IMG/VR virus record: IMGVR_UViG_3300037882_003354
Coordinates: 124,001 to 188,000 of that record
Length of the DNA stretch: 64,000 bases
From: a virus
Strand: one strand, 5' to 3'
Numbering within the stretch: position 1 is the stretch's first letter; the number at the start of each line of letters is the position of its first letter. Made by a program: the position numbers and the translations under genes. This document shows positions 13,467 through 45,625 of this stretch, piece by piece. The notes beneath the pieces are model-generated. The model saw only the letters and a list, made by a program, of their open reading frames with translations, ran no database searches and was not told the DNA's origin.

Positions 13467-13474
13467 CATAAATA
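13467..13474 (+). promoter_or_regulatory. T4-type late promoter
   Basis: CATAAATA (13467-13474), six bases, then ATG at 13481. No ribosome site between. Confidence 0.72.
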
Positions 13475-13480
13475 TTCACT

Positions 13481-14728
13481 ATGAGAGCACGCGAATTCCT
13501 TAGATTACTTGAAGAAGATGCATCATCTTCTGACCCTTTGTACGGGCTAAAAGTCATGATTGCCGGCAAGATCAAAGATCTTCCACCCACCAAAGAAACA
13601 CAAGACGCCCTGACTGAGATTGAAGATCTACTCAGCAATGTGGGCGCTGGTGGACGACTGGGCTTGATCAATCAGACATTGAGCTCCATTCATGATCCCA
13701 GTGTGACCAAGGCACAAAAACTCCTGGCCAAATACATATTGAGTGTTCCCATGACACGGGAACAACGAGATGATCTGTTCAGTCGGTGGCGTAATGATCA
13801 ACTGGTCAACAAGGATCTGTTGTTGCAGACTGGGCAGCATGAGATCAAGGACATCATACTGGGCTATGATGAGAATCCTGCCATCAAGGAACTCACCATT
13901 GATCTGGCACAGGTACAGGCCATTGGACAGGGCAAGGGAGAATTTCTCCTCAGCGTGTTCAGCAAGAGCATTTCCAAATTGCAGAAGGGTGACCTCATGA
14001 TCGATGGTCACCAGATTGAAGTCAAAACCTATGACGTAGGTGGCGGTCGATTCTATGACCAGGAGGTTCGAACAGCACAGGGGTACAGCGCCTCCGTGGA
14101 GAATTTCAGGAACACCTGGGCTGATGAAATCGCCTATGCATTTCCCAGTCTGGCCAAGTCGGGATTGAAGCTGGATGATCTCATACTGCTGTCTGACCAC
14201 ATTGAAGTAAAAAAGAAAAAGAAGTACTGGGAGTCTGTCCGACAGGTTTTCCAGAATCTGTTTCCCGGCCAGGACACGTCGGGCATCATCGATGCCATGC
14301 AGGTGGGCAGCAGTGGCGCTGCCAAGCAACTGTATGCATTGACCAGTGTCAAGTATTACCAGAGTGTCAAGAAGGACGATTACGGCATTATTTTCATCAA
14401 CCTGTCAGCTGCCATACCCACATTCGTATTCTTTAAAGATCCTGATGAGTTGTCCGACAGTGGACTGCGGTTGCATGCATCCACGGCCTATCCCGTGGCC
14501 GCCATGGATCCCAAGGATGCATATCCACAGATACGTATTGTACCCGGCGGTGGTGGCGTCACCACAGCACCCAGTTCACCCACTGCGTCACGCAGCCCAG
14601 CTGCGGCGGCTGCACCAGCAGCACGTAAACCCAAACCTGCACCTGTTGCAGCACCCGTCGCTGCACAACCCGCACCTGCTGCCACCACACCACCATCGGT
14701 GCCGGCGGACACGCAACAGCAGCCTTGA
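13481..14728 (+). CDS. Nuclease-motif protein with Ala/Pro-rich tail
   Basis: 415 residues. Begins MRAREFLRLLEED, a start shared by many late proteins of aquatic T4-like phages. Residues about 160-200 (KGDLMIDGHQIEVKTYDVGG) have the D...ExK spacing of PD-(D/E)xK nucleases, followed by a Gly-rich GGGRFYDQEV. From about residue 355 the chain is Ala/Pro/Thr-rich and disordered. A nuclease role is an inference from a short motif; it could equally be a virion protein with a relic nuclease fold. Transcribed from its own late promoter with no ribosome site. Confidence 0.6.
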   Translation: MRAREFLRLLEEDASSSDPLYGLKVMIAGKIKDLPPTKETQDALTEIEDLLSNVGAGGRLGLINQTLSSIHDPSVTKAQKLLAKYILSVPMTREQRDDLFSRWRNDQLVNKDLLLQTGQHEIKDIILGYDENPAIKELTIDLAQVQAIGQGKGEFLLSVFSKSISKLQKGDLMIDGHQIEVKTYDVGGGRFYDQEVRTAQGYSASVENFRNTWADEIAYAFPSLAKSGLKLDDLILLSDHIEVKKKKKYWESVRQVFQNLFPGQDTSGIIDAMQVGSSGAAKQLYALTSVKYYQSVKKDDYGIIFINLSAAIPTFVFFKDPDELSDSGLRLHASTAYPVAAMDPKDAYPQIRIVPGGGGVTTAPSSPTASRSPAAAAAPAARKPKPAPVAAPVAAQPAPAATTPPSVPADTQQQP

Positions 14729-14768
14729 TCGATCAGGACATTTAATACACCGGTGGCGATCTTTCCGG

Positions 14769-14774
14769 TAAATA
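14769..14774 (+). promoter_or_regulatory. T4-type late promoter
   Basis: CCGG then TAAATA (14769-14774), six bases, ATG at 14781. Confidence 0.7.
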
Positions 14775-14780
14775 TTTTAC

Positions 14781-15335
14781 ATGAACAAACGAATATCCTG
14801 CCAGGGACAACTGCTGGCCGCCAATCCGGTAAACCCTGCCGATGAACTCTGCAAGGCCGTCATCCTGGTGCTCAGCCACAACCCCGACCGGGCTATTGGC
14901 ATACAGATCAACAGCCCCCTGGAAAATCTCACACTACAAGCAGTGGCCGGTAAATTGGGCATAGAGTATGAAGGTGCAGACCCCATCTGGTCTGGTGGCC
15001 CAGCCGGACCAACTAAAATTCATGTCATACATAGTCTGGACTGGGCCAGCCTGAGCACTGTGCAAATCAACGAAGGAATTGGAGTCACCAGTGATGTGTC
15101 AGTGATTGCTGCACTCAGTCGTGGTGATGGCCCTGAACATTTCCGAGCATGTTCGGGATTCTGGATCTGGGAGGATGGACGTCTGGATCGGCAACTGGAT
15201 GTCCGGTCACAAGAGCCCTATACCTGGGAACTCAGCGCCGCCACCGTGACGTCTGTGTTCCAGGGCGAGGGCACCATGCAGTGGCTGGCCGTTCTGGAAG
15301 ACAGTGCCCAGCTGCAGATAGACAACTGGTTCTAA
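14781..15335 (+). CDS. YqgE/AlgH (DUF179) family protein
   Basis: 184 residues. The opening CQGQLLAANPVNPADELCKA, then VILVLSHNPDRAIGIQINSP, is the standard start of YqgE/AlgH proteins (G-x-L-L-x-A-x-P, HN-x-x-x-A-x-G-x-x-x-N-x-P), and SGGPAGPTKIHVIHS and GDGPEHFRACSGFWIW follow in the expected order. Family length is usual. Bacterial YqgE has no firmly established biochemical role. The 3' end overlaps the convergent helicase gene by four bases. Confidence 0.82.
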   Translation: MNKRISCQGQLLAANPVNPADELCKAVILVLSHNPDRAIGIQINSPLENLTLQAVAGKLGIEYEGADPIWSGGPAGPTKIHVIHSLDWASLSTVQINEGIGVTSDVSVIAALSRGDGPEHFRACSGFWIWEDGRLDRQLDVRSQEPYTWELSAATVTSVFQGEGTMQWLAVLEDSAQLQIDNWF

Positions 15336-16822
15336 TCCCGCTCGGGGTTCACATCAGGCATGGTCAACATGCCGCGTATGCTGGCCGGCCGGCTGGATGC
15401 ATTGTTCTTGAACTTGTTGGCACTCATGCCCACAGTGGGATCAATGATCTCCCCAGTGGCATCGTCCACTGATGTGGTGCTGACCACGCTGGTACGCTTG
15501 AGTCCCTGATACGCACTATTACCACCGCCAGTGCTCTGCTGTGCTCGTTGTTGGCTGAAACTACTGGTGTCTTCATCCTCGTTCAAGTCTGTGATGCGCA
15601 GAGTGTCCAGGTTAAACTCCAGATCCACCTTCTGTCCCACACCACTACTGCTGCGTGTCTTCATGAACTGAATCTGATAACGACCACGTTCCTTCATGGC
15701 CCTGCTGGTAAAGATGCCAATGACATTGTCTGCTGTCATGATCTTGCTCAAGCCACCTGAAATGTGACTGTGGTCAAACTCAATCTCCTCCACTGCACTG
15801 CGATTCAACTGACTGGCAGTGACTGTGACACATTGCGTCTCCATGGCCAAGTTTCTGATCTCCTCACTCACGTATTTGTCCTTGACGAACAGATCACTGG
15901 GCGATACCTTTACTGACAGTGGCATCATCAAATCCAGGTAATCTATGAGCAAAACATCAGGTTTTACGCCTTTTTTCACCTGATATTCTTTAAGATATGC
16001 TCTGATATCGTTACAATTCTTGCCACTTGGCATGTACTTGATCTGTATGCTGCCCGCCTTCTTGCCCAGCATCTTGACCTTGAGTTCCACGTCATCAATG
16101 TTCTTGAAGATCTCGCGTGTGCTGATGCCTGTGGTCATGCTGTCCAGTCGCATGGCCACCAGACCCTCGCTCAACTCGAATGTCAGGTACAACACATTTA
16201 GACCCAGTTGCGCCCAGTTGACTCCCATGTTGGCCAGGAACAGACTCTTGCCGCCACCTGATCCTGCACAGAAGATGTTGAGCTCGCCGCGGTTAAATCC
16301 GCCATACAACTTGCGATCAATGCTGGGCCAGCCTGTGCTGATCTGCCCGTTGCCGTCTTTCAACTTGCTCAATCGACTGCGCGGATCTTCAAAGTAGTCA
16401 GTGCCCATGTCCTTGTTCAGACTGATCTGAATGGCATCCTTGATCAACTTCTCCACAGGTCCATAGTCTCCAGCCTCCAGCAGATCACTGCTCTTGATGA
16501 TGGCCCGCTCCAGGCCCTTGTGCCGGCTGAAGTTCTCAAACTCATCCATGAGCCATTCGTAGTTCTCACGGGGCAGGGTAATGGCATCGAAAGTGCTGCG
16601 TGTGGCTGCATTAACAATGCTGGCCTCGGGCATGACCTTGTATTCATCCACATACCGGTTGATAAACTCTGCGGCCGCCTGCAGACGTTGATCAAAGTTC
16701 TCATGATCAAAAATATTCTGACACCTGACAAATGTTTCAGCATCTGACAGGAACATCTCCAAATATAACTTCTGCATGGCAAAGTCATAGTTGGGTTTGA
16801 CCGCGGCTTTATTCTTCTGCAT
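15332..16822 (-). CDS. gp41: Replicative DNA helicase, T4 gp41-like (DnaB family)
   Basis: 496 residues, close to T4 gp41. Walker A GSGGGKS at 187-193 within GELNIFCAG, Walker B-type LLIDYLDLM near 315, and an arginine-rich C-terminal RecA core (KERGRYQIQFMKTRSS). The N-terminal 180 residues are the helical collar domain. As a hexamer it unwinds the fork on the lagging strand and carries the primase. The gene overlaps the 3' end of the primase gene by 14 bases, so the two primosome parts are translated together. Confidence 0.93.
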   Translation of the reverse strand: MQKNKAAVKPNYDFAMQKLYLEMFLSDAETFVRCQNIFDHENFDQRLQAAAEFINRYVDEYKVMPEASIVNAATRSTFDAITLPRENYEWLMDEFENFSRHKGLERAIIKSSDLLEAGDYGPVEKLIKDAIQISLNKDMGTDYFEDPRSRLSKLKDGNGQISTGWPSIDRKLYGGFNRGELNIFCAGSGGGKSLFLANMGVNWAQLGLNVLYLTFELSEGLVAMRLDSMTTGISTREIFKNIDDVELKVKMLGKKAGSIQIKYMPSGKNCNDIRAYLKEYQVKKGVKPDVLLIDYLDLMMPLSVKVSPSDLFVKDKYVSEEIRNLAMETQCVTVTASQLNRSAVEEIEFDHSHISGGLSKIMTADNVIGIFTSRAMKERGRYQIQFMKTRSSSGVGQKVDLEFNLDTLRITDLNEDEDTSSFSQQRAQQSTGGGNSAYQGLKRTSVVSTTSVDDATGEIIDPTVGMSANKFKNNASSRPASIRGMLTMPDVNPERD

Positions 16823-17807
16823 TTTCCAGTTTCCTCTTCAGTAGATGTAGATTTATCTCTCCACTGACCTTGTAGTGTAATATTGTGGACAACGTGTATA
16901 ACCTGCCGTATCGTTTCACAGCATCAGCCGCATCTTTGACATCTGACTCCCAGGGCGGCAAGCTCACGCTCCAGCCCTGATCGACAGCCACCTTGATCAT
17001 CTTGGCGCCCGCTCGATCACGATCAGGTACCACTATGACCTCCCGACCCAGGGAATTTATTCTAGCGCATTGTGTTTCATTGGGTTCATTGTGCATGATG
17101 GCCACTCCATCCACAGCAATGGCATCAAACTGTCCTTCAACTACTATAACAAATTTACGCTCGTTTGTCTGTCTATCCAGGTTAAAAACATAACCAGGTT
17201 GCGCATCTGTCAGGTACTTGGGTTTGCCGGGTGTAATCTTGCGACCAGTGTAGCCCACAATCTTGCCCTGATGATAGAAGGGAATGATGACTCTATCCCG
17301 GTAACCCTTGGCTGCACTCCAGTGCCAGTTGTACCAATCCCAGCCCATCTTGCGTTCATCCACCAGGTACGTGATTATATCAAGCAGTTCAGCTTCTTGC
17401 ATGCCCTGAGCTATCCATGTGTCCATGGGCAAACAGTCTGCAGGCAGAGGACGTTCCTCCAAGGCCAGTTGCAATGCTTTTTTGGATACAGGTTGATCGT
17501 CTTTGATCTTGAGTGCCAGCAGGTTCAACTTGCCTATGTCCATGTCACTAGCGCCCAACCATTTGAACAAATTTTTGGTATTCTTGCTCAGCAGCTTGCC
17601 CGGGGACCAGCCGGCTTTAAAATTACAGTTGAAACAACTGTATGCCCAGCCACCATCTGGGCTGGTCTTGATACCGCCTCGCTTCCTGTCATCCCTCTTT
17701 TCGCCGTTGTACGAACAACAGACCGAATTGAAACTATCCCACCCGCTGGGTGTGGATTTTCGATTGGGCGGCAGCAGTGAGAACAGGGCGGCCTGTATGT
17801 CGTTCAT
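16809..17807 (-). CDS. gp61: DNA primase, T4 gp61-like
   Basis: 332 residues. N-terminal zinc-binding domain with Cys30/Cys31 and Cys58/Cys61 (SCFNCNF), then the TOPRIM core: Glu224 in VVEGQFDA and the metal-binding PDRDRAG at 261-267. It makes RNA primers at the fork with gp41. The helicase gene overlaps its end. Eight bases upstream ends the virion-type gene 17816-18652, so the primase is probably read from that gene's promoter as well as from others. Confidence 0.92.
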   Translation of the reverse strand: MNDIQAALFSLLPPNRKSTPSGWDSFNSVCCSYNGEKRDDRKRGGIKTSPDGGWAYSCFNCNFKAGWSPGKLLSKNTKNLFKWLGASDMDIGKLNLLALKIKDDQPVSKKALQLALEERPLPADCLPMDTWIAQGMQEAELLDIITYLVDERKMGWDWYNWHWSAAKGYRDRVIIPFYHQGKIVGYTGRKITPGKPKYLTDAQPGYVFNLDRQTNERKFVIVVEGQFDAIAVDGVAIMHNEPNETQCARINSLGREVIVVPDRDRAGAKMIKVAVDQGWSVSLPPWESDVKDAADAVKRYGRLYTLSTILHYKVSGEINLHLLKRKLENAEE

Positions 17808-17815
17808 GCACTATT

Positions 17816-18652
17816 TTAACACCTGTAGAGCACTTTGTCAAATGAACCGTAATATGCAGGATTGTCGTTGTCAAATTCAGCAGGTGCAGTGGCTGGCACA
17901 TACATGATTCGAACATAGGAAAAGATGCCGTTGAAGTTTACATAATCAACACCGGTGAAGTCGTCGTAAGACAGTGTTTGTACAGTTACGTATCGATCAA
18001 AACTTTGCGGGCTGTTGTACAAGGTGCCCTGTACATACACGGTGCCACGGAAACCGGTCATGTACATGGCCATGGTGTGCAAGGCAGTGTTACTATTATA
18101 CTCTGGGCATGCATAAACATTACCGCTCTTGTGCTCGTACTGATTGGTAAATGAATTAAATGATTTGTTAAAACTCACGATCTCTTGGCTGGACTGTAGC
18201 ACAGGATTAATGTCTTCGGCCAAGTGAACAGTGCCAGCAACTCCGTAATAGGTGTTGGCGTAAGTGGGCAAATACGTGCCGTCATCAGGATCTCGATACT
18301 TGACGCTGAATTGATAACTGGACTTGGTGAGATCCATGGTGTCGCTTTCCGTCAGGGTCAGCAGGGCCAGTCCCCGTGTGCTGGTGTTGGTCTCAATGAC
18401 CTCCAGTTGCTTCTCCAGCACCAGCCGTTGGCTGATGGTGTCGAACATGGAGAATACAAATGTCTGCGTGTTGCTGATGGACACTCGCTTTTGATCGCTA
18501 TTCTTAAACTGAATGCGTACCTTGTTCTTGATTCCCTTTTGAATCTTGAGATCGTGCTGATACATAACTTGATTGACTCCTCGTACAGTGGGGTACAAAT
18601 CTAATATTACATCCAGATTGTTGTCATATAAATAGATTGGTAAATTTTGCAT
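17816..18652 (-). CDS. Conserved virion-type structural protein
   Basis: 278 residues. The start MQNLPIYLYDNNLDVILDL, then VMYQHDLKIQKGIKNKVRIQFKNSDQKR, matches a conserved family of T4-like aquatic phages annotated as virion structural proteins; the body is beta-rich. The exact position in the particle is unknown to me. The ATG at 18652 lies five bases after a TAAATA late element; the longer upstream frame crosses that promoter and is rejected. Confidence 0.72.
   Translation of the reverse strand: MQNLPIYLYDNNLDVILDLYPTVRGVNQVMYQHDLKIQKGIKNKVRIQFKNSDQKRVSISNTQTFVFSMFDTISQRLVLEKQLEVIETNTSTRGLALLTLTESDTMDLTKSSYQFSVKYRDPDDGTYLPTYANTYYGVAGTVHLAEDINPVLQSSQEIVSFNKSFNSFTNQYEHKSGNVYACPEYNSNTALHTMAMYMTGFRGTVYVQGTLYNSPQSFDRYVTVQTLSYDDFTGVDYVNFNGIFSYVRIMYVPATAPAEFDNDNPAYYGSFDKVLYRC
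18627..18634 (+). promoter_or_regulatory. Perfect TATAAATA on the plus strand
   Basis: TATAAATA (18627-18634), 38 bases before the ATG at 18673, inside the start of the minus-strand gene. A candidate late promoter for 18673-19056. Confidence 0.5.
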
Positions 18653-18657
18653 ACTAG

Positions 18658-18663
18658 TATTTA
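18658..18663 (-). promoter_or_regulatory. T4-type late promoter, 5 nt from ATG
   Basis: TAAATA read from 18663 to 18658, five bases, ATG at 18652. Confidence 0.75.
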
Positions 18664-18672
18664 TTGATAACA

Positions 18673-19056
18673 ATGTCAACAACCACCATCTTCCAAGAAA
18701 ACTATCCCTTTATCACCTGCATCAAGTCAAACGACATTGAATACGTGGGGTTGATCATCAATAACGATACCTATATCACCAGCATCTACGATATTGCAAC
18801 ATTACGTTCCGGTGATGAACGTCGCATTTTTTTGGAAATGGGAGAAGTATGGTGGTGGGAGAGCAACCGTAAAATACCCATCAACATATTTCTTAAAAAA
18901 GAAATGCAATTGTTCAAGTATACCATCAAAACTTTCAACAGCAAGGACACCGTTATAGTCTTCGGACCCACGGTAAATCTCAGTGAGATTGCCGAGAAAC
19001 GCGTCAAGCGCAAATCCATTCAATTGGTCAGGGTTCCCAAGCAGAATCTCGACTGA
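18673..19056 (+). CDS. Conserved T4-like phage protein, function unknown
   Basis: 127 residues. EYVGLIINNDTYITSIYD, then MGEVWWWESNRKIPINIFL and the end KRVKRKSIQLVRVPKQ recall a conserved small protein of aquatic T4-like phages. Basic C-terminus. Isolated on the plus strand among minus-strand genes; its end overlaps the convergent gene by 29 bases. Confidence 0.7.
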   Translation: MSTTTIFQENYPFITCIKSNDIEYVGLIINNDTYITSIYDIATLRSGDERRIFLEMGEVWWWESNRKIPINIFLKKEMQLFKYTIKTFNSKDTVIVFGPTVNLSEIAEKRVKRKSIQLVRVPKQNLD

Positions 19057-19618
19057 GGTTTTCACATATCAAATTCATCTGCATGACCACGGCATGTGCA
19101 TAGCCATAGGCATGGGATTTTTTCCATGAGTATTCCACAGTCTTGGTCCAGATGTCTGAGGCAATGGCCGCCCAACCCTGATGCGCACACACTGATATCA
19201 GATGCCGTTTTCCCGGTCTCAGCAGTGCCAGAAACATGGCCAATTGATCGATATTACGTGGCCTCAGTTCAGCCACCAGGTCATGATGACCATTGACATG
19301 AAATATCATGTCGGAAAACTCACGTTGCTCCAATAGTTCCCACATGGGTTCCACGGCCAGCAGCCGGTTGATATGAGTTTCGTCCTTGACATCCTGGTAC
19401 ACACCCACATTCAAAAAGTCTATCTTGAAATAACCCCGAGCCTGAGCCGCACGGTAGTCCATGCTGGCTGTGCCGGTCAAAGGGTTCACGGGAATTTCCT
19501 GGCAGTAGACACCAGTGTTATGACGCTTGACCGTTTTGCCATCATCAATGGTGGCTGGCACATGCTTGATCAACTCAAGTATGCTGTTGCGATCTCCAAA
19601 ATCAATGTCAATGTCCAT
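19028..19618 (-). CDS. Short protein with C-family polymerase (DnaE-like) palm motifs
   Basis: 196 residues. It opens MDIDIDFGDR, like the PDFDVDF strand of DnaE; Asp4 and Asp6 would match the catalytic Asp401/Asp403 of E. coli. HNTGVYCQEIPV (33-44) resembles the HAGGVVIAP segment, GYFKIDFL (62-69) resembles GLVKFDFL with Lys65/Asp67 matching Lys553/Asp555, and LRPRNIDQLAMFLALLRPGK resembles the LxPxxFxDxxALxALxRPG segment. So all three metal-binding aspartates appear in order in one sixth of the length of DnaE. Overlaps the hldD-like gene by 11 bases. Activity cannot be judged from sequence. Confidence 0.68.
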   Translation of the reverse strand: MDIDIDFGDRNSILELIKHVPATIDDGKTVKRHNTGVYCQEIPVNPLTGTASMDYRAAQARGYFKIDFLNVGVYQDVKDETHINRLLAVEPMWELLEQREFSDMIFHVNGHHDLVAELRPRNIDQLAMFLALLRPGKRHLISVCAHQGWAAIASDIWTKTVEYSWKKSHAYGYAHAVVMQMNLICENLSRDSAWEP

Positions 19619-22938: not shown

Positions 22939-22939
22939 G

Positions 22940-27839: not shown

Positions 27840-27848
27840 CGGTTAACC

Positions 27849-28862: not shown

Positions 28863-28921
28863 AATGTTCTCCTTGATAATGTGCCTATTTTATGCCATTT
28901 TCCTAGAGCCAACTGACTAAA

Positions 28922-32182: not shown

Positions 32183-32187
32183 AGTAT

Positions 32188-32193
32188 TATTTA
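32188..32193 (-). promoter_or_regulatory. T4-type late promoter, 5 nt from ATG
   Basis: TAAATA read from 32193 to 32188, five bases, ATG at 32182. The TAA stop of the terminase gene lies directly before it. Confidence 0.75.
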
Positions 32194-33783: not shown

Positions 33784-33788
33784 GTGAG

Positions 33789-33794
33789 TATTTA
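33789..33794 (-). promoter_or_regulatory. T4-type late promoter, 5 nt from ATG
   Basis: TAAATA read from 33794 to 33789, CTCAC, ATG at 33783. Confidence 0.78.
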
Positions 33795-33796
33795 CT

Positions 33797-33820
33797 GAAA
33801 AGAATAGCCTCCGAAGAGGC
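33797..33820 (-). terminator. UUCG-loop terminator
   Basis: On the minus strand GCCTC-TTCG-GAGGC (33820-33807) followed by TATTCTTTT. A stable UUCG tetraloop is typical of T4-group terminators. It ends the 34837 transcript just before the terminase promoter. Confidence 0.85.
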
Positions 33821-33844
33821 CATCTGGTTCAGGTGTCTAATGTA

Positions 33845-34837: not shown

Positions 34838-34839
34838 AA

Positions 34840-35430: not shown

Positions 35431-35437
35431 AGTGCTT

Positions 35438-35920
35438 TTATTTATTCAAATTCTTTAATTTTTCCAGAATACTATTACGGTCAGTGAGAATATAACCCTG
35501 ACCTTCCACAGTTTCTCCGGTTTCTGTGCCATGTTTTTTGTCTATGGCCAGCTTCTTCAGCTGTAGGTCAACCATTTTTAACTTCTTGTCTATCTTGGCA
35601 CTCTTGGCCTGTATGGCAGCGTTCATCATGTTGGCTGCCACTTCAAACATTCTGGCACCATACCGGGCCTCCACATTCATGCCCAGGTCCATGAGATCGT
35701 CGTATGCTTGCTCGGCCTTGGATGCCAGATCGTCAAATTCTTGATCGCTGAGATCGCCCAGACCAGTTACCCTGGGCAATGCTGCAGAAATTTTGTCAAA
35801 TTCTTCCAGTTGATCTTGTAGATTGATTGCAGGTACCACCTCTGTGGCCTTGGCATTGTTTTTAATCAAGGGCTCATTATTGGGCGGTAAATCCAAAAGT
35901 TCTTCTAATTTTCGAGTCAT
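35438..35920 (-). CDS. gp16: Terminase small subunit, T4 gp16-like
   Basis: 160 residues. The core QEFDDLASKAEQAYDDLMDLGMNVEARYGARMFEVAANM and the following long helix (KSAKIDKKLKMVDLQLKKLA) fit gp16 of T4-like phages, which recognises DNA for packaging as a ring. Its stop TAA is part of the AATAAATAA late element of the next gene. Confidence 0.82.
   Translation of the reverse strand: MTRKLEELLDLPPNNEPLIKNNAKATEVVPAINLQDQLEEFDKISAALPRVTGLGDLSDQEFDDLASKAEQAYDDLMDLGMNVEARYGARMFEVAANMMNAAIQAKSAKIDKKLKMVDLQLKKLAIDKKHGTETGETVEGQGYILTDRNSILEKLKNLNK
35439..35444 (-). promoter_or_regulatory. T4-type late promoter overlapping a stop codon
   Basis: TAAATA read from 35444 to 35439, eight bases before ATG at 35430. 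The last codons of gp16, AAT AAA TAA, form the element. Confidence 0.65.
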
Positions 35921-35925
35921 GTGTG

Positions 35926-35931
35926 TACTTA
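35926..35931 (-). promoter_or_regulatory. Variant late promoter TAAGTA
   Basis: TAAGTA read from 35931 to 35926, five bases, ATG at 35920. Its TAA is the stop of the gp4-like gene. Confidence 0.55.
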
Positions 35932-36749: not shown

Positions 36750-36753
36750 GGAT

Positions 36754-38001
36754 TTATCCTCCAGTAATCTTGGATTCTGTGGCAGGTGTTGTGCCGTTGG
36801 TGCTGCTGTTTTTGTCAGCAAAAATATTGATGCCAACTCTGCCAAGTTGTCCTATGCCAGACTGACTCAATCCTTGTTCAGCCGCTCCACGAGTACCACC
36901 TGGTTGATTGCCGGTGGCCTGTATGTTGCCCAGCACCCCGGATACAATACTGTATCCTTCTGTTTTAAGATTTAAATTTTTTGCATTTTTAACTACATTG
37001 ACGCCCTGTACAACTGCTGCCAGGTAATTGGGATCATCACTGCTCAGGTTGCCAAATACTGAAGCCGCGCCCGCCAAGACTCCGCCGGCCCCAAACAGAG
37101 TGTTGGTTCCGTTTCCACCCACACTCAGTGGGCTGGGGCTGGTGTCGTAGTACACTGCTGTAAACTTTGATGACTCATCACCGCTGGTGATTGCCCCAGA
37201 TTTATACAATACATCTTCGTATGCCACAGTCATTTTATTTTGTAATATTTTAGCGCCATCGTTTTGATCCAAATTATCATGAGCCCAGTCTGTGACCAGG
37301 GGATTTATCAATGTTATTTGAGTGAACTTCTGCTGGTGCAACACGTATATGTCTATGCTTTTAAAAAATGGAATGGATTGCGAATTACTCAGACCGTAGG
37401 CATAATCGGTGGTGCCATACTTGGTGTCTCCAAATGCAGTGGGCACACCTGTGGCACCTGAAGTTGCACCTGGCGATCTACCGCGACCACCGCGCAATGT
37501 GTTCAGTACATTGCTGGCTACGCCTTCTAAAAAGCCCGCGGGCTTGTCGCCACCATTGTTTGCCGGGGCCGTGGTCAGCTGGCCGTAATTACTGTCGGAA
37601 AAATAATATCTGTAGTAGTTGATCCATAAATTGTTGGTTATGTCGCTGTTGTCGTCATGGAAATCCATGCTGACTGGTTGATATGTTAGTTTGGATTGCA
37701 CCACGGTTTTTCTGTTATATTGATTCAGCGTCTCTGTGGTAATGTTAAACTTGGGCAAATCAATTTTTTTAACCAGCAACCCAATGTCCTGAACACCGCC
37801 CTTCTGCAACCACTGTGCATTTCCCACTGCCTCGGTGTTGACATTAAAACTGACAAAATATAGGAATCCGTGCTTGGGCGACCGGGCATAGGTGTTCCTG
37901 ACATACAGGCGATCAGCATGTTGATAGTCTTTGAGGTCGCCGGTGGTTCCAAAAAACCCACTGGAAACACCGCTTAAAAAATTTGTGAAGGCATTACTCA
38001 T
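36754..38001 (-). CDS. Tail-tube/baseplate-type structural protein
   Basis: 415 residues. HGFLYFVSFNVN, KKIDLPKFNITTETLNQYNRKTVVQSKLTYQPVSMDFHDD and LINPLVTDWAHDNLDQND have the tail-tube-fold pattern also seen in gp19 and gp54, and the C-terminal third is Gly/Ser-rich. In related phages this position holds a virion protein of the tube or tube initiator (gp54) type. The exact equivalent cannot be fixed here. Confidence 0.65.
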   Translation of the reverse strand: MSNAFTNFLSGVSSGFFGTTGDLKDYQHADRLYVRNTYARSPKHGFLYFVSFNVNTEAVGNAQWLQKGGVQDIGLLVKKIDLPKFNITTETLNQYNRKTVVQSKLTYQPVSMDFHDDNSDITNNLWINYYRYYFSDSNYGQLTTAPANNGGDKPAGFLEGVASNVLNTLRGGRGRSPGATSGATGVPTAFGDTKYGTTDYAYGLSNSQSIPFFKSIDIYVLHQQKFTQITLINPLVTDWAHDNLDQNDGAKILQNKMTVAYEDVLYKSGAITSGDESSKFTAVYYDTSPSPLSVGGNGTNTLFGAGGVLAGAASVFGNLSSDDPNYLAAVVQGVNVVKNAKNLNLKTEGYSIVSGVLGNIQATGNQPGGTRGAAEQGLSQSGIGQLGRVGINIFADKNSSTNGTTPATESKITGG

Positions 38002-38006
38002 GATAA

Positions 38007-38012
38007 TATTTA
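38007..38012 (-). promoter_or_regulatory. T4-type late promoter, 5 nt from ATG
   Basis: TAAATA read from 38012 to 38007, TTATC, ATG at 38001. Confidence 0.77.
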
Positions 38013-38014
38013 GT

Positions 38015-38044
38015 CAAAGAAAAAGGCCTGGTTGCCCAGGCCTT
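38015..38044 (-). terminator. Strong intrinsic terminator after the tail tube gene
   Basis: Perfect 9-bp stem AAGGCCTGG / CCAGGCCTT (38023-38044, 4-nt loop); the minus strand continues TTTTTCTTT. It separates the tail tube gene from the next late promoter. Confidence 0.9.
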
Positions 38045-38061
38045 GGTGTGGGGCGTGAGCT

Positions 38062-38697
38062 TTAACCGCCCACTGCCAGTGTACGTACAGTACGACCAAC
38101 TGATGCACCCAGTCCGGTTGGGTTGCCTGAACCGTCGACTTGGATGGCATTGTCATAGCAAACAGTCAATGCAATGTCCATGATGTCTGTTGACGAATTG
38201 TAGTCGCCACCTTGATAGGTGGCACCTTGTAACCAGCACCCGTGGAACTCAAATGTTTCCAAGGTGTTGGGTGTGTAGGCACCATTACCACCGTCCAGTA
38301 TTTCCACTCTCATCATGAACTTGTAGTCAATACCTGATGCTGCACCACTTTGTTCAAAGAAGTCGAATTGCTTTTGCAGTTGCTCGCCCACTTTCTTGGT
38401 AACTGCGTTGGTAACGTCGTCACGCAGAGTTAATTTGGCATTGGCAAAAGAGTGTTTTCCAGCTATCTTGACAGTGCTGTTATAAACACCCAGTTTGATT
38501 TCGTCAAAAGAAATCTCAGGGCGTGTGACATTCATCACCTGTTTGGTTAATTCCGTAGTAGGAGTACCTGCCACACCGAATCCATCCATGGTCACGCGAA
38601 AGCGATACTTGAGTTTGGGCATGAGCAGACCCTGAGAGGTTGAACTCTGATTGGTGGCTAATGGTACTGAAAATTTGCTTAGACTTGAGATTGGCAT
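38062..38697 (-). CDS. gp19: Tail tube protein, T4 gp19-like
   Basis: 211 residues. LMPKLKYRFRVTMDGFG and TRPEISFDEIKLGVYNSTVKIAGKHSF, with TFEFHGCWLQGATYQGGDYN near the end, are typical of gp19 in T4-like phages. It stacks as rings inside the sheath. The ATG follows AAGGAGCATTT, a conventional ribosome site, and TATAAAGA (38718-38711) upstream may be a late promoter variant. Confidence 0.9.
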   Translation of the reverse strand: MPISSLSKFSVPLATNQSSTSQGLLMPKLKYRFRVTMDGFGVAGTPTTELTKQVMNVTRPEISFDEIKLGVYNSTVKIAGKHSFANAKLTLRDDVTNAVTKKVGEQLQKQFDFFEQSGAASGIDYKFMMRVEILDGGNGAYTPNTLETFEFHGCWLQGATYQGGDYNSSTDIMDIALTVCYDNAIQVDGSGNPTGLGASVGRTVRTLAVGG

Positions 38698-38727
38698 AAA
38701 TGCTCCTTATTCTTTATATTGTTCTGA

Positions 38728-41700
38728 TTAACCTAAATTTCCAGATGCTATTTCACCAGTGTTGAGCAATCTCAATGGAATGTAAATAAATTCCACTGCT
38801 TTGACTGGTTCAATGGCAACGTCCACCCAGAGTTCTGATCGGTCAATTCTAGCAGGCGTATTGTTGGAAGTGTCGCAGACCACAATGAAGTCGTACAATG
38901 CGCGTTGTCCCACCAATTCCACCAGTAGACTTTCCACGGCTGCTTTAATTTCATTGCGCGTTTGTGCATCGTTGGGTTCAAACAAGTAAGGCTTGGCCAG
39001 TATGCCCAGTTGCTGACGTAGGTAGCAGACCAGTCTGGCCACATTGATACGATCCAGGGACGATGCATTCTTGGCGCGTGTATACTGACCAAAGTTAACA
39101 AGTCCCACACCTGGCAATGTTGCGATGGGGTTGATCTTGACATCGTGCATGACATTGCGCAGGCCTTCATACAAGGATGCAGTCTTGAACTCACCTTCGC
39201 TGGTGATGTATCCCACAGATGTGGCATTGTCAACACCGCCGCGGCGAGTACCAGCCGGTGCAAACCATGGATAACTGACATTGTCGCTGTTAAGGATGGT
39301 GCGCAATATCATGTGACTTGGCGGAACAACAATGTTGTTGCCTGCGTTATCTGTGGTGAATCCGCTGGGGTAGAACATGCCCATGTAACTGTCATAGCTC
39401 ACAGCACCATCGTCGCCGTTGTCAAAAGCCAGGGCTGCATTGTTACCCCAGTTGCTTAGTTCAGTGGCAGTGGGTTCCAATCTAAATGGGGTGTCGCCCA
39501 CAACAAATGCAGTCTGTCCACGGTCTGTGTTGAATGCCACCATGTTCTGTATGACTTCTGGATAACCAGGACAGGCAATCAAGTTAAACATCAGCGCGTC
39601 GGTGTCTCGAACTGCTTCGTTTGTATCAATGGTGGCCTTGAGTTTGGACACCACATATCCGCGTTGGGCAAGACGTCCAAACTTACCGCTGCCGTCTTCA
39701 TTGTTGGCACTCACTGTGACCCAACGATCTGGGGAATAGCCGGCCATGGGATCGTTTGCAAATCGAAGGTTTGATCCGTTGTTGGCGTTAACGTTGATGT
39801 GGCCAGCCATGAACTGTTTGACATTAAATCCGCTGCGACGCAGATTCCACAGTCGTGTGCCCCTGGGGTACAGACGTGGGTCCACGCAATCTGGATCCAC
39901 ATAGTTGCTGGACAGCAGGTCAGTAATGGCCGTCACCGTCTCTGGACCGGTCGCACCAGCATCGCTCCAACGTGCATCTGCAAACACCCAGCCGGTGGGG
40001 CTGGTCTGATCTGCAACATCCTGCAGCACCCATTCGAGCAAATCTCTGTCCCAGACATAGATATGACGTCCATACATGTCAGGATCTGATGTGTCAATCC
40101 AGATGTCACCAGTCACTAGATCGGTTCCATCGCTTTGTACAGTGGGCTTGGTGGCGCTAATGATGGGGCCGTTGGGATCAGAAGTGGCAAATGCATTCCG
40201 ATACCCAATCCAACGGGTGCCTTCATTGTACATGATGTCCACAGATTCCATATTGCTGTCATACCACAACTTGCCGTCAACTGGTTTGGTCGTGGGAGTA
40301 GTACCCGTCGCCTGGTAAACCAATGGCTTCCAGTTGCTGGCTGAGAAATCATACCCATCACCCTGAGGTGCCTGATACAAATTAACTGTTCCTGATTTGT
40401 TCACAGGATCGTATGCAGCAAATCCCGCAATGTCCAAGGGCGTTCCCACGCCGTCCAGCAGTTGGAAATCGCCGCCCAGCTTGTGCGTCAGGGTCAATCT
40501 GTTGGTCACAAGATCATAGTTAGCGGTGATATTTTGCAGTGCAGAGTTGCTAATGCCCACTGTAATTTGCGAGGCTACACTGGCAATACTTGATCCGGGA
40601 ACAGTAATAACAATATCATTGCTCCAGTCGGTGTCACTGGCCAGTGTTTCCCTGATGGTAAACTCTGATGAAACTCCATTTGTGGCTGTGGAAGCATCGC
40701 TGACTATCACAGTGGCGCCTGAATTACTTCTTCTCCAGAGTTTAAATCCTGCGGCTGGACCAACATCCAGACCATAGTGCTCAGGATCAGATTCAACAAA
40801 CAGTGTGCCCACTGCAATATTTTTGCCGCCGCCTGCATAGTCGATCTTTTCCAGTGCTTGACGAGCGCTGTCGTAGACTGGTGCATTGATACTGGTCCAT
40901 GCTTGTGTGCTGCCATTGTAATATTTCACCATCCAGTTGGCACCAAGGCCCGGCGTGGTTGTCTTGATCCACACGCTGCCAGTTACAGCTGAGTTGCCCG
41001 TGCTGGTGGTGAAGTCAGGATAATCATAATGCGGCGCAACAGTCAACTTCTTGGTGGCCGATTCGTCCCATAAATTTCCAGTATTCGATGAAACTTCCAC
41101 CCAGTTGGTGGCAGTCCTGTAGTAAAGTGCATTGGTGTTGTTGGATGTGACCACCATGGCGTAATCGCCGCGGTTGCCAAAACCTGACTTGGGACTATAC
41201 ACATCGGAAACTAGGTCAGCAACCACATCCTTGTTACTGTCATCGATGATCAAGGGCGTCTTGGTGGTAAATTTTTGTGTGACTGCGTCCCATTCGTTGA
41301 TACCAAACAGGCTGTTTTTAGTGTCCACCCAATAAGTGCCGCTGACTGGATCCCCAGCCGGCACGCTGGTGGTGGGCGACAATTCGGCTAGGTCAACATC
41401 GGCACGAACTACATATGCTCTGGAACTAACACCCAGCAAACTGTAGGCAGTCTGCAATCCGTATTCATTCAATTCACCGCCGTGAATTGGGTTGCCGTTA
41501 TTGGTGTAAAACAGCGGAGTACCAAATGTATCGGAAAGATCACGCTGACTGGTGATGGCCCAAACTTTACCCAAATTAGCAGCAGTGGTGCCTTGGGCAG
41601 TGCCACTGGCTGATGCATTGCTCTTGTCTTGCGCAGTTGCAACAAAGATGAGTGGCACTGTGCCGGGGGCTGCGGGGGTGTAAAAACTCTCGTCAACGAC

Positions 41701-41736
41701 TGTTACTTGTACGCCGGGTGAACCTAATGTGGCCAT
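38728..41736 (-). CDS. gp18: Tail sheath protein, T4 gp18-like, enlarged
   Basis: 1002 residues against about 659 in T4. The N-terminus (SPGVQVTVVDES) and the C-terminal core (FGQYTRAKNASSLDRINVARLVCYLRQQLG, then YDFIVVCDTSNN) are standard sheath. The extra length lies between about residues 125 and 600 and contains several short W-rich units: GTYWVDTKNSLFGINEWDA, GSVWIKTTTPGLGANWM, GKLWYDSNMESVDIMY and GDIWIDTSDPDMYGRHIYV. These likely form surface domains. The ATG follows AAGGAGATTTAAAAC. Confidence 0.93.
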   Translation of the reverse strand: MATLGSPGVQVTVVDESFYTPAAPGTVPLIFVATAQDKSNASASGTAQGTTAANLGKVWAITSQRDLSDTFGTPLFYTNNGNPIHGGELNEYGLQTAYSLLGVSSRAYVVRADVDLAELSPTTSVPAGDPVSGTYWVDTKNSLFGINEWDAVTQKFTTKTPLIIDDSNKDVVADLVSDVYSPKSGFGNRGDYAMVVTSNNTNALYYRTATNWVEVSSNTGNLWDESATKKLTVAPHYDYPDFTTSTGNSAVTGSVWIKTTTPGLGANWMVKYYNGSTQAWTSINAPVYDSARQALEKIDYAGGGKNIAVGTLFVESDPEHYGLDVGPAAGFKLWRRSNSGATVIVSDASTATNGVSSEFTIRETLASDTDWSNDIVITVPGSSIASVASQITVGISNSALQNITANYDLVTNRLTLTHKLGGDFQLLDGVGTPLDIAGFAAYDPVNKSGTVNLYQAPQGDGYDFSASNWKPLVYQATGTTPTTKPVDGKLWYDSNMESVDIMYNEGTRWIGYRNAFATSDPNGPIISATKPTVQSDGTDLVTGDIWIDTSDPDMYGRHIYVWDRDLLEWVLQDVADQTSPTGWVFADARWSDAGATGPETVTAITDLLSSNYVDPDCVDPRLYPRGTRLWNLRRSGFNVKQFMAGHINVNANNGSNLRFANDPMAGYSPDRWVTVSANNEDGSGKFGRLAQRGYVVSKLKATIDTNEAVRDTDALMFNLIACPGYPEVIQNMVAFNTDRGQTAFVVGDTPFRLEPTATELSNWGNNAALAFDNGDDGAVSYDSYMGMFYPSGFTTDNAGNNIVVPPSHMILRTILNSDNVSYPWFAPAGTRRGGVDNATSVGYITSEGEFKTASLYEGLRNVMHDVKINPIATLPGVGLVNFGQYTRAKNASSLDRINVARLVCYLRQQLGILAKPYLFEPNDAQTRNEIKAAVESLLVELVGQRALYDFIVVCDTSNNTPARIDRSELWVDVAIEPVKAVEFIYIPLRLLNTGEIASGNLG

Positions 41737-41769
41737 GTTTTAAATCTCCTTAATTGGATTACTTTGTTT

Positions 41770-41775
41770 TATTTA
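41770..41775 (-). promoter_or_regulatory. T4-type late promoter of the sheath gene
   Basis: TAAATA read from 41775 to 41770, 33 bases before ATG at 41736. Unlike the other late genes, this one leaves room for a leader with AAGGAG. Confidence 0.72.
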
Positions 41776-41801
41776 GCAACTATGTTCAAAAATCTCTGGA
41801 T

Positions 41802-41807
41802 TAAATA
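41802..41807 (+). promoter_or_regulatory. T4-type late promoter, plus strand
   Basis: TAAATA (41802-41807), 30 bases before ATG at 41838; leader contains AAAAAGGGCG. Confidence 0.6.
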
Positions 41808-41837
41808 CCCAAAAAGGTATACAAAAAGGGCGCATGT

Positions 41838-42176
41838 ATGAGAAAATTATGTAAACTGTGCAACGAACGTCCACAAGCCATCAACTACCACAAGCATGGG
41901 GTGGTGCACTACAGATCAAAGTGTGATCATTGCAACAGCGGACGAAAGAAAGGGCGGTCGCCCTGGGAGTTGTCGGGATATAAGAAAAAGTCAATATGCG
42001 AGAGGTGTGGCTATCTGTCCAAATATTCCGAACAGTTTAATGTATTCCATATTGACGGACACTTGAACAATTGTAGGTACACCAACCTAAAAACAGTATG
42101 TGCCAATTGTCAGCGTATCTTGCATCGTGACGGTGCAAAATGGCGGCAGGGCGATCTAGTCCCTGATAAGATTTAA
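41838..42176 (+). CDS. HNH-type endonuclease-like zinc protein
   Basis: 112 residues with four Cys pairs: CKLC at 5-8, CDHC near 34-37, CERC near 54-57 and CANC near 90-93. FHIDGHLNNCRYTNLKTVCANCQRILH matches the HNH pattern (His, Asn, then CxxC and a final His). Free-standing HNH genes in T4-like phages are usually mobile. It sits in an otherwise minus-strand stretch right after the sheath gene and overlaps the convergent neighbour by 21 bases. Confidence 0.75.
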   Translation: MRKLCKLCNERPQAINYHKHGVVHYRSKCDHCNSGRKKGRSPWELSGYKKKSICERCGYLSKYSEQFNVFHIDGHLNNCRYTNLKTVCANCQRILHRDGAKWRQGDLVPDKI

Positions 42177-42914
42177 CCGCAGTTTTTCTACGAAACAATA
42201 ATTCACGTAGTGATTAGTTTTAGTGTCCACGATATAATTCAGGATGGCTTGATTGGATGTTATCCATCGTTCAAACGCATACCTGTAAGTGGGCCCCACA
42301 GGCTCGTAATATGCTTCGGTATCCAGTGGATCTGACAGTGTCCGAATGTGACTTGATTTTGACCACCAGTAGTTGCCACTCATCACAAGATCACTAGAGA
42401 TGGCATCGCGAACACCTGATACATCATGGTCCTGCAACTTTCTCACATGATGTGTCCATTCTTTGATGACAAAATGGTCCAGTACTTCTTTCCAATTGGT
42501 GGTGGTGGCCACTGGAGAATAGTTGGTAATACCCTTGCTGTGCAGGTAAAGAAAATATGCATCCACTTGGCAAGCGCGTTGTTGTAGCAATTTTAAAGTT
42601 TTACCTTCATACGTATTGGGCTCTGTGACGTCGCAGATGTCCACAATATTAACAAAGGGATACCTCAGGTTCACATATTCACGGATCTTGTCTTCAAAAG
42701 TCAATATCACGGATGCGTCGTCGTTTTTGGTCAGTGAAAATCCTGCAATCTCTGTCCAGTGCTTGGGCATGGTGATGGACAGGTTGACATTGGATATTTC
42801 TAATAATCTGGATTCAGCAAGTTGTGCAATAAATCCGTCTAAAAAATGCGACCATAAACAGCACTTCCAGTCACTGGGTATGTATAAATGATAAAAAATT
42901 TCTATGGGATGCAT
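42156..42914 (-). CDS. Glycan-locus type protein, possible glycosyltransferase
   Basis: 252 residues. The pattern FLYLHSKGITNYS, with WKEVLDHFVIKEW and then MSGNYWWSKSSHIRTL, recalls a family (YLHTKG...SGNFWW) found in polysaccharide loci and often called glycosyltransferase-like. No DxD motif is clear. It would fit the phage's other sugar genes but lies apart from them, joined to the dNMP kinase gene by a one-base overlap. Confidence 0.55.
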   Translation of the reverse strand: MHPIEIFYHLYIPSDWKCCLWSHFLDGFIAQLAESRLLEISNVNLSITMPKHWTEIAGFSLTKNDDASVILTFEDKIREYVNLRYPFVNIVDICDVTEPNTYEGKTLKLLQQRACQVDAYFLYLHSKGITNYSPVATTTNWKEVLDHFVIKEWTHHVRKLQDHDVSGVRDAISSDLVMSGNYWWSKSSHIRTLSDPLDTEAYYEPVGPTYRYAFERWITSNQAILNYIVDTKTNHYVNYCFVEKLRLNLIRD

Positions 42915-43540
42915 CAGGGCGCAGACATGATCAGGGATTTGAGTTGTAAAAATAACTCGTCAATGGTGCCATCGTTGGACACCGCATGATCGATGGCACC
43001 GCCCACCCAGGAGGTCTCGCTGGCATGAATGCCCAATTGTGACAATTGCCGACTGCAATCAAGATCACCGGAATTGGCTGCAACCGCCAGGTCAAACCAT
43101 GCAGGATCAGGACCCCTCTTGGTGCGAATCACCACACCCCCTGCATTATGAATTGCCTTGATTTCGTTGGGGAAACGAACATCACTGATGACAATACTGT
43201 CGTTGGTCTTGCGCATCTTGTTTTCCAGGCTGGCGATCCAGATGTCGTCGTGAAATCCTTGACGGCAAACTTCAGTGCCCCAATGTTGTAAAATCCAGCG
43301 TGGAGTTAAGTTGGGCAGGTTCAATCGCGCAGACCACCAAGGGTCCACCTGCTCTCGCCAGGCACGTGACTCTGATGTTCGCCCCTCTAATAGAGTTCGA
43401 TCCCAACCAAATATCACGCTAACCGCGTCTTTGAGAGTGTTGGCAAAACTATCACGACGAAAGCCGTGTACATTGCAGAGGTAATCTGCTGCTGTGTCTT
43501 TTCCACTGCCGATAAAACCAACTAGACCTACAATCATCAT
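42914..43540 (-). CDS. gp1: Deoxynucleoside monophosphate kinase, T4 gp1-like
   Basis: 208 residues. P-loop GFIGSGKD at 8-15, then SFANTLKDAVSVIFGW, RTSESRAWREQVDPWW and LQHWGTEVCRQ, all typical of T4 gene 1 kinases that convert dNMPs to dNDPs for replication. It has its own host-type promoter at 43558-43586, so it is likely expressed early despite lying among late genes. ATG at 43540 or 43537 follows GGGGGAT. Confidence 0.9.
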   Translation of the reverse strand: MMIVGLVGFIGSGKDTAADYLCNVHGFRRDSFANTLKDAVSVIFGWDRTLLEGRTSESRAWREQVDPWWSARLNLPNLTPRWILQHWGTEVCRQGFHDDIWIASLENKMRKTNDSIVISDVRFPNEIKAIHNAGGVVIRTKRGPDPAWFDLAVAANSGDLDCSRQLSQLGIHASETSWVGGAIDHAVSNDGTIDELFLQLKSLIMSAP

Positions 43541-43557
43541 ATCCCCCGTATGGGTAT

Positions 43558-43586
43558 ACTATATTGCATTCGTATTACATAGTCAA
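43558..43586 (-). promoter_or_regulatory. Early promoter of the dNMP kinase gene
   Basis: On the minus strand TTGACT (43586-43581), 17-bp spacer, TATAGT (43563-43558). Confidence 0.78.
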
Positions 43587-43603
43587 TGAGTTTTTAAAAT
43601 ATT

Positions 43604-44362
43604 TTATCCAGTGACCCAGGTGAGTGGAGTCGAACCTTCTTTGTAATTGATCAAATCTTGTTCCAGGGCTTCCATTTCAGCCTTGCCCTCTCCCTTGAGT
43701 GCAGCACCGTTGAGTTGGGTACCGCCCTGTGGGCTGGCGATGGTGGCAAATTTTTCACGAGCCTCGCCCAAGATCACCTTGCAGTTGGCCAATGCGTAAT
43801 CTTTCAACCACTGACCCGCATAGTTGTCCTGCAACAGATTGAAGTCTGGGCGATAGTTGTACATCCAGACCAGCAGTTCTTCGTCGGACCTGGGACGCTG
43901 CATGATGGTCAGCATGCGGCTGGTCTTGTTGAAGGTAAAATTAATTTCTGATCCAAACATTTTACCCACTTGCTTCTGATAACTGGCAAATGCATAATAT
44001 GTGGCCAGACCGCCCATGTTGGTGGAAGTCAACAGATAGGTGTTGGAATATGCCAGGTTAAACGGCTCGAACAGGCTGCCACCATCGCCGCCACCTGATC
44101 TGGAGCCAATACTACGACGGAACAACTGCCGGATTTCCATGACTTCCTTGGGCATGATGTAGTCATTCTGGTCCACCTGTATGGTCAGGAATCCAAAACT
44201 TTCTTCCACGGCATTGCTACTGCGCTGGCGGTACTTGGCCAGGGCACGATTTAATGCAGTTTCATAATGAATTGGGTCAAGTTCTACATCCACCATGCCG
44301 GAACCCAGCATGGCTTGCACGTACTCAACTACTTGTCGGCGAGAGTTTAGTGTTTCATCCAT
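43604..44362 (-). CDS. gp13: Neck protein, T4 gp13-like
   Basis: 252 residues from the ATG at 44362, five bases after TAAATA; the longer upstream frame is rejected. MDETLNSRRQVVEYVQAMLG, then LDPIHYETALNRALAKYRQRSSNAVEESF and MPKEVMEIRQLFRRSIGS, fit gp13 of aquatic T4-like phages, which joins head to tail with gp14. The gp14 gene diverges from it. Confidence 0.82.
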   Translation of the reverse strand: MDETLNSRRQVVEYVQAMLGSGMVDVELDPIHYETALNRALAKYRQRSSNAVEESFGFLTIQVDQNDYIMPKEVMEIRQLFRRSIGSRSGGGDGGSLFEPFNLAYSNTYLLTSTNMGGLATYYAFASYQKQVGKMFGSEINFTFNKTSRMLTIMQRPRSDEELLVWMYNYRPDFNLLQDNYAGQWLKDYALANCKVILGEAREKFATIASPQGGTQLNGAALKGEGKAEMEALEQDLINYKEGSTPLTWVTG

Positions 44363-44367
44363 GTCAA

Positions 44368-44373
44368 TATTTA
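44368..44373 (-). promoter_or_regulatory. Late promoter of gp13, 5 nt from ATG
   Basis: TAAATA read from 44373 to 44368, TTGAC, ATG at 44362. Confidence 0.77.
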
Positions 44374-44414
44374 GTCTCAGATGTGGTCTTTCCATCTGTT
44401 ATCACTCGATTCAA

Positions 44415-44420
44415 TAAATA
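44415..44420 (+). promoter_or_regulatory. Late promoter of gp14, 5 nt from ATG
   Basis: ATAAATA (TAAATA at 44415-44420), TAACT, ATG at 44426. Back to back with the gp13 promoter, 41 bases apart. Confidence 0.78.
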
Positions 44421-44425
44421 TAACT

Positions 44426-45625
44426 ATGCCAAGACTCAGCCTGTACAGATCAGAAAAAGGTGCGGATTTCCGATTCATTGACCGCGTGATCAATGAAGAA
44501 TTTCAAGTGGGAGGTGTGGACATTTTTGTACACAAATACCTGGGCCCAGTGGATCCACTGGCTGGCGAAAGCACACCCAGCACACCTGTCAATTCCAATG
44601 CCATACCGGAACTGGGCATCCAAGATATAATCTTCATGGAAAACCGAGATCGGCATTATGATCCAGATGTGTATGTCATGCGTGGCATATACCAGATGCA
44701 GGATTTGGATTTCAACCTGAGTCAGTTTGGTCTGTTTTTACAGAATGACACTGTGATGTTGCACTTCCATCTGAGGAATACCGTGGACACCCTGACGCGC
44801 AAAATCATGCCAGGTGACGTGGTGGAAATGCCTCACTTGAAAGATGAGTATGCCCTGGACGACCACATGGTTGCGCTCAAGAGATTTTATGTGGTGCAAG
44901 ACGTCACACGACCTGCCAATGGATTCAGCCAGACCTGGTATCCGCACCTGTTGCGTGCCAAGTGTGTGCCCCTGGTGGACAGTCAGGAATTTAAAGAAAT
45001 TCTGGACGGCGATGCCGGTGACGGCACACCGCTGCGCGATTTGCTCAGCACTTACCAGAAAAGCATTGAGGTCAATGATCAAATCATTGCCCAGGCTGAG
45101 GCAGATGTTCCGAAAAGTGGATATGATACCCAGAGTTATTTTGTCATACCCACAAGAGAATCAGGATTGGTTGATAATGCTGATGCATCCTCCGTGGACG
45201 AGGATGCCAGCATAGACCAAGCCATCTACGACGCCAGTGTGGTGTTGAGAAGTCCCAACAGAGACCTGTATGTGGGGTACATGACCGGAGACGGAGTACC
45301 GCCCAACGGTGCTCCATATGGTTTCGGAATCACTTTTCCCAATAATCCAGTAAATGGATCATTTTATCTCAGAACCGATTATTTGCCCAATCGGCTGTTT
45401 AGATTTAATGGCAACAACTGGATCAAGTTTGAAGACAATGTTCGCATGACAGTGAACAACTTTGGTGCAGGCGATGTTGCTGGCGGTGCCAATGCAGGCA
45501 AGGACATCCGACAAACTCAGAAACTTGGATTCATTAACAACACAAACACCTCCACCATCGCGGGCGAGGTTGTACAAGAGCGTCAGGCGCTGAGCAAGGC
45601 ATTGAAACCCAAGGCGGACAATTGA
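44426..45625 (+). CDS. gp14: Neck protein, T4 gp14-like
   Basis: 399 residues from the ATG at 44426. MPRLSLYRSEKGADFRFIDR, then GGVDIFVHKYLGP and IQDIIFMENRDRHYDPDVY, are the usual start of gp14 in aquatic T4-like phages. Near residue 310-340 it carries a W-type unit (NGSFYLRTDYLPNRLFRF, FNGNNWIKFE) similar to those in the sheath. Followed one base later by the next tail gene. Confidence 0.85.
   Translation: MPRLSLYRSEKGADFRFIDRVINEEFQVGGVDIFVHKYLGPVDPLAGESTPSTPVNSNAIPELGIQDIIFMENRDRHYDPDVYVMRGIYQMQDLDFNLSQFGLFLQNDTVMLHFHLRNTVDTLTRKIMPGDVVEMPHLKDEYALDDHMVALKRFYVVQDVTRPANGFSQTWYPHLLRAKCVPLVDSQEFKEILDGDAGDGTPLRDLLSTYQKSIEVNDQIIAQAEADVPKSGYDTQSYFVIPTRESGLVDNADASSVDEDASIDQAIYDASVVLRSPNRDLYVGYMTGDGVPPNGAPYGFGITFPNNPVNGSFYLRTDYLPNRLFRFNGNNWIKFEDNVRMTVNNFGAGDVAGGANAGKDIRQTQKLGFINNTNTSTIAGEVVQERQALSKALKPKADN

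Follow-up and report, generated by a model that had tools for sequence, protein, structure and literature searches.

The stretch of DNA analysed here, 64,000 nucleotides of a jumbo phage (the window), raises the question of how a set of late genes is translated when a T4-type late promoter box lies five or six bases before the start codon and a Shine-Dalgarno (SD) site is absent. We suggest that the late mRNAs of these box-adjacent genes are leaderless or near-leaderless, and from comparative sequence analysis we would put the probability of this reading at about 85%. The TAAATA boxes would be gp55-type late promoters, corresponding to the -11 to -6 part of TATAAATA. Transcription of certain late genes, always the same ones, would begin on the A of the start codon or no more than ~3 bases from it, and the 5'-terminal AUG would be bound directly by ribosomes. 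In the sheath, tube and major capsid genes an SD site instead precedes the ATG, with the box, where present, 17-44 bases upstream, and such SD-led leaders would be kept where much protein is needed. Leaderless late mRNAs had already been proposed in a preliminary description of the window; the proposal is unproven, but it has strong sequence support in the spacing peak, the almost exclusive use of ATG, the pyrimidine at -1, the terminators, the divergent gene pairs and the presence of SD sites where boxes are not adjacent.

At seven starts in the window, exactly five bases separate the box from the ATG. Six are on the minus strand: the box at 18658..18663 (ATG 18652) precedes the gene for a 278-aa protein of a virion structural family (phrog_14467); that at 32188..32193 (ATG 32182) precedes a gene for a 1061-aa protein with a weak virion structural family match, in whose orthologues an upstream comparison places the box at 4-7 bases; that at 33789..33794 (ATG 33783) serves the terminase large subunit; a TAAGTA box at 35926..35931 (ATG 35920) precedes a 160-aa protein with a weak terminase-small-subunit match; that at 38007..38012 (ATG 38001) belongs to a 415-aa tail-tube-related protein (gene 36754-38001); and that at 44368..44373 (ATG 44362) belongs to the head-tail adaptor Ad2, which is T4 gp13-like. 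The seventh, on the plus strand at 44415..44420 (ATG 44426), precedes the gene for a 399-aa protein of a virion structural family, divergent from Ad2. Two further TAAATA boxes on the plus strand, at 13469..13474 and 14769..14774, lie six bases before ATGs 13481 and 14781, which open the genes for a 415-aa protein without family match and an AlgH-like product (PF02622), respectively. All nine starts are where the preliminary description had placed them, and its claim that they lack a ribosome site also holds: no SD-like sequence is found at normal spacing before any of the nine. One more minus-strand TAAATA box (35439..35444) has an intermediate spacing, 8 bases before ATG 35430. The window contains 28 TAARTA boxes, for which an ATG would be expected about 0.62 times at any one spacing; at spacing 5 it is observed 7 times (Poisson p ~4e-6, uncorrected for the choice of spacing).

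Other late genes in the window are arranged differently. The tail sheath gene (ATG 41736) has its TAAATA box on the minus strand at 41770..41775, 33 bases upstream, and a leader with AAGGAG. The box at 47791..47796, also on the minus strand, lies 32 bases before ATG 47758, and the leader carries TTAGGAG. In the tail tube gene (38062..38697, minus strand), AATAAGGAGC precedes the ATG and the box is degenerate; in relatives the box of this gene lies ~20-31 bases upstream of the ATG. All three had been described as late genes that keep leaders with AAGGAG, which is correct for the sheath; the tube gene retains AAGGAG, but its TAAATA box, present in relatives, is lost, and at 47758 the site is TTAGGAG.

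The source record is a virus of 322,512 bases (~322.5 kb) and a T4-superfamily phage. Its terminase matches those of T4-superfamily jumbo phages, the best match being Pseudomonas phage PA5oct at 54.8% identity, and the genome encodes a gp55-type late sigma homologue (phrog_234, E 2.9e-24) and a T4-type Gp23 major capsid protein. A search for the clamp gp45 with phrog_223 gave no match in this genome, and phrog_223 matched nothing anywhere searched. Counting the box-to-ATG spacing over the whole genome and over relatives bore out the pattern of the window. Genome-wide, TAARTA-N5-ATG has 17 matches versus 6 for a reversed-pattern control, and each of the other spacings (2-4 and 6-10) is matched 2-7 times in the tally; relatives also peak at five. 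The genome-wide counts come from pattern searches and the loci that they returned. At least 4 of the 17 matches (L003, L012, L013, L014) are not gene starts, so that roughly a dozen appear to be real. Genes for a ClpS-like protein and a peptide deformylase (L001 and L017), outside the window, also have TAAATA-N5-ATG starts.

In T4 the late box spans -13 to -6 (PMC2988020), about the distance that the preliminary description had assumed, and with five spacer bases +1 would therefore coincide with the A of AUG; that transcription begins exactly there is what we infer. The TAAATA core, equivalent to -11 to -6 of TATAAATA, is present at the starts of the window and of its relatives. The TA at -13/-12 is not conserved among the relatives, with A, G and T at -13 in 42%, 38% and 12%, respectively, and A at -12 in 47%. 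Variants at these two positions are known in T4 and Aeh1 (PMC2988020), and we therefore call the boxes T4-like late promoters and not strict members of the class. The full TATAAATA was set aside as a motif: TATAAATA-N4-ATG, in which a spacing of four was used, has no match in the genome, and -13/-12 are unconserved. At spacing-5 starts the ATG is preceded by a pyrimidine in 96% of cases, versus 58% at SD starts (p 2e-27), and this pyrimidine followed by A fits a Y(-1)R(+1) initiator, the usual initiator preference. Start codons at spacing 5 are 193 ATG, 2 GTG and 1 TTG (n=196) versus 512, 14 and 45 at SD starts (n=571; p 2e-5). Both p-values overstate significance and are descriptive, because related sequences were treated as independent. 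Purine content was also used to place +1 independently in SD-led genes, but the result is weak: the expected purine step at +1 is clear only in a strict subset (87% versus 61%, n=84) and falls short of significance when the set is widened (p 0.21, n=136).

We fetched 80 IMG/VR loci with the terminase and scanned all genes in the resulting 1.1 Mb for box-to-ATG distance. The distribution is bimodal, with 29, 186, 24 and 34 starts at 4, 5, 6 and 7 bases, a valley of 1-4 starts per spacing at 8-16 bases, and a second hump from 17 bases up in which many genes carry an SD site. The valley fits two separate modes, one with almost no leader and the other with a leader long enough for an SD site. Box positions are conserved in diverged relatives while the five spacer bases vary. 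The terminase start could be read in 74 loci; in ~66 of them the box precedes it by a few bases, often with a terminator hairpin immediately before the box. Among its 59 distinct upstream sequences the box is adjacent in 52, 48 of which lack an SD-like tetramer, and an SD site is found in 6 of the 7 without an adjacent box; box adjacency and SD sites are thus nearly mutually exclusive in this gene. The 36754-38001 gene, too, is adjacent to its box in most cases, and so is Ad2. Sheath and tube genes are never box-adjacent across the 80 loci, and capsid genes are SD-led in 6 of 6.

Further scans were made with three proteins, the product of the 36754-38001 gene, Ad2 and the sheath; they are only partly independent, since some loci lie on contigs of the first 80. 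The 36754-38001 gene is box-adjacent, at 4-6 bases, in 48/48 distinct upstream sequences, all 48 of them free of SD sites. Ad2 is box-adjacent in 70/72, of which 58 have no SD site and 12 an SD-like tetramer upstream. The sheath gene has a leader and an SD site in 17/17. Rare switchers of mode were seen among orthologues of the 36754 gene and Ad2 (L082, L078, L065, L340), with the box at 16-17 bases and GGAG or AAGGAG in between. Across the collection, the T-tract pattern GGCTTTTTT-N4-TAAATA-N5-ATG occurs in 53 IMG/VR stretches, in 45 of which it opens an ORF of >=60 codons; the N8 control occurs in 6, and opens such an ORF in 0. The placement of these promoters is thus genuine, conserved in relatives and specific to particular genes, and the two modes that had been suggested among the late genes of the window are supported as a gene-specific and conserved distinction.

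The surroundings of the boxes also bear on how the mRNAs are made. In the window, an intrinsic-terminator hairpin, GCCTCTTCGGAGGC with a T-rich tail, lies directly upstream of the terminase box (33807..33820, minus strand) and is conserved in relatives, and a second hairpin, AGGCCTGGGCAACCAGGCCT with a T tract, lies directly upstream of the 38001 box (38024..38043, minus strand). Among relatives, terminators stand directly upstream of the box at 67 of 181 box-adjacent starts, versus 0.6 expected from shuffles, and at 3 of 173 leadered starts. Upstream transcripts should therefore mostly not reach the genes that have such a terminator. Ad2 and the gene for the ~400-aa virion protein are divergent, and in 50 of 72 relatives their boxes are back to back and only 24-51 bp separate their starts, a gap with no room for leaders; in the window the gap between the start codons of Ad2 and the 44426 gene is 63 bp. 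Some box-adjacent genes, among them 32182, lie behind another late gene with no terminator in between, and could be supplied by read-through mRNA as well.

We consider it unlikely, though worth weighing, that the late promoter starts imprecisely or somewhat upstream, giving leaders of 1-5 bases, and that translation relies on A/U-rich sequence and not on a 5'-terminal AUG. The spacings of 4, 6 and 7 bases are in keeping with such short leaders, and among spacing-7 starts the A at position 5 after the box, found in 97%, suggests a 3-base leader there. However, the peak at 5 is several-fold above the neighbouring spacings, and the prevalence of a pyrimidine before the ATG would focus initiation on the A. 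The spacing-7 starts, mostly orthologues of the 44426 gene and others, may form a group with a leader of 2-3 bases.

An addition to leaderless initiation, and not an alternative to it, is that a phage-encoded bS21 replaces the host protein and so favours leaderless late mRNA. Both the window phage and the Pelagibacter phage HTVC008M encode bS21, and E. coli ribosomes with the HTVC008M protein translate a GFP reporter at ~5% (PMC6375957). However, bS21 is also encoded by PA5oct, Phosso, Atu_ph07 and Vibrio 2.275.O; in the regions of PA5oct and Phosso that were analysed most late genes have leaders, and Atu_ph07 and Vibrio 2.275.O have no excess of box-adjacent ATGs when the full octamer is used. 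Nor was bS21 found in the contigs of nine box-adjacent relatives (~0.9 Mb, all partial). Because phages without the box-adjacent class carry it too, we have demoted bS21 as the specific cause and regard this role as rather improbable. In the window phage its gene (L137 1453-1689; G000:C1:37144-37296, outside the window) lies beside a ClpX-like gene. A phage-encoded IF3 was looked for and not found in these phages.

It is very unlikely, in our view, that TAAATA-N5-ATG is a translation element, an A/U-rich contact for the ribosome or S1 on read-through polycistronic mRNA, and not a promoter. Several of the genes lie in same-strand blocks where read-through is possible, and the box takes the place of the SD site. 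Yet genes with an SD site of their own carry the same box 17-44 bases upstream, terminators abut it at many of the box-adjacent starts, the divergent pairs share 24-51 bp, and the motif is the core recognised by gp55, which the phage encodes. Chance or an annotation artefact, in the form of AT-rich intergenic sequence and wrong start codons, can be dismissed despite the spacing-5 matches noted above that are not gene starts: the spacing outlasts the five bases themselves in diverged relatives, control motifs give no comparable single-spacing peak among the relatives' loci, the N8 control lacks ORFs, the proteins align from residue 1, and the further scans refute it.

The preliminary description had also suggested that the two modes could set protein ratios. 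T4 needs small numbers of terminase and neck proteins but many copies of the sheath, tube and capsid proteins. The sorting of genes agrees with the suggestion in that sheath, tube and major capsid genes are SD-led and terminase and neck genes box-adjacent, but the low-copy portal of HTVC008M is SD-led. Stoichiometric control would fit this sorting as a hypothesis. A broader possibility, which we offer tentatively and think somewhat doubtful, is that T4-superfamily phages of aquatic bacteria use a stoichiometry code: packaging, neck and tail-end proteins of low copy number would be made from leaderless mRNAs and the sheath, tube and capsid proteins from SD-led ones, possibly with tuning by late phage changes to the host ribosome.

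The T4 late system (gp55/gp33/gp45) shares with the window phage the TAAATA core, the gp55-type sigma, the late virion genes and the five bases from box to +1 (PMC2988020). In T4, however, 14-28 bases separate the TATAAATA box from the ATG and include an SD site, whereas in the window phage a conserved subset of genes has a distance of exactly five bases and lacks the SD site, and the TA at -13/-12 is not kept. The late genes of T4 and Syn9 have leaders, and show no excess at spacing 5. The isolate HTVC008M shows the pattern: 11 TAAATA-N5-ATG starts, versus 0-3 at other short spacings, match annotated CDS starts. They are at 6280, 7562, 11972, 16007 (minus strand), 18916 (minus strand), 18943, 19456, 31132, 49760, 75559 and 75830. 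They include genes for head closure, tail tube cap, tape measure, DNA end protector, tail completion and baseplate wedge proteins; the sheath, tube, portal and major capsid genes have SD sites. The spacing-5 starts of HTVC008M thus lie mostly in tail, neck and baseplate genes. Unlike the window phage, it has a genome of 147 kb and belongs to a separate lineage, the pelagimyophages. With its cultured host, Candidatus Pelagibacter ubique HTCC1062, HTVC008M would be a directly testable system.

A published survey of pelagimyophages reports a failure of late-promoter prediction (PMC7029224), which the geometry described here may explain. The full-text literature searched, from which many subscription papers are missing, yielded no account of leaderless late mRNAs of the T4 type. 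If leaderless initiation is correct, structural genes would be split between two initiation modes, fixed per gene over wide evolutionary distances; this would provide a natural test bed for the benefit of leaderless translation, and would guide the annotation of gene starts and promoters in many aquatic T4-like phages.

Leaderless genes of mycobacteria, Corynebacterium and Deinococcus have a -10 box ~10 bases before the start codon. They resemble the box-adjacent genes in having a promoter element immediately before an ATG, an AUG start and no SD site, but in the window phage the element is a late-sigma box, and whether a virion gene has a leaderless or an SD-led start appears fixed gene by gene. 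The cI gene of phage lambda has a leaderless mRNA that starts at AUG, but this is a single regulatory gene, in contrast to the clade-wide class of structural and packaging genes considered here. Among jumbo phages, phiKZ also has a late promoter motif at the transcription start, TATG, with +1 at its G (PMC4666361, PMC7618050); it differs in its polymerase, in having a box that is not of T4 type, and in its geometry.

Two long genes for tail fibres, at 56528-63928 in the window, show numerous internal matches to the same virion families, which suggests that these genes contain internal repeats.
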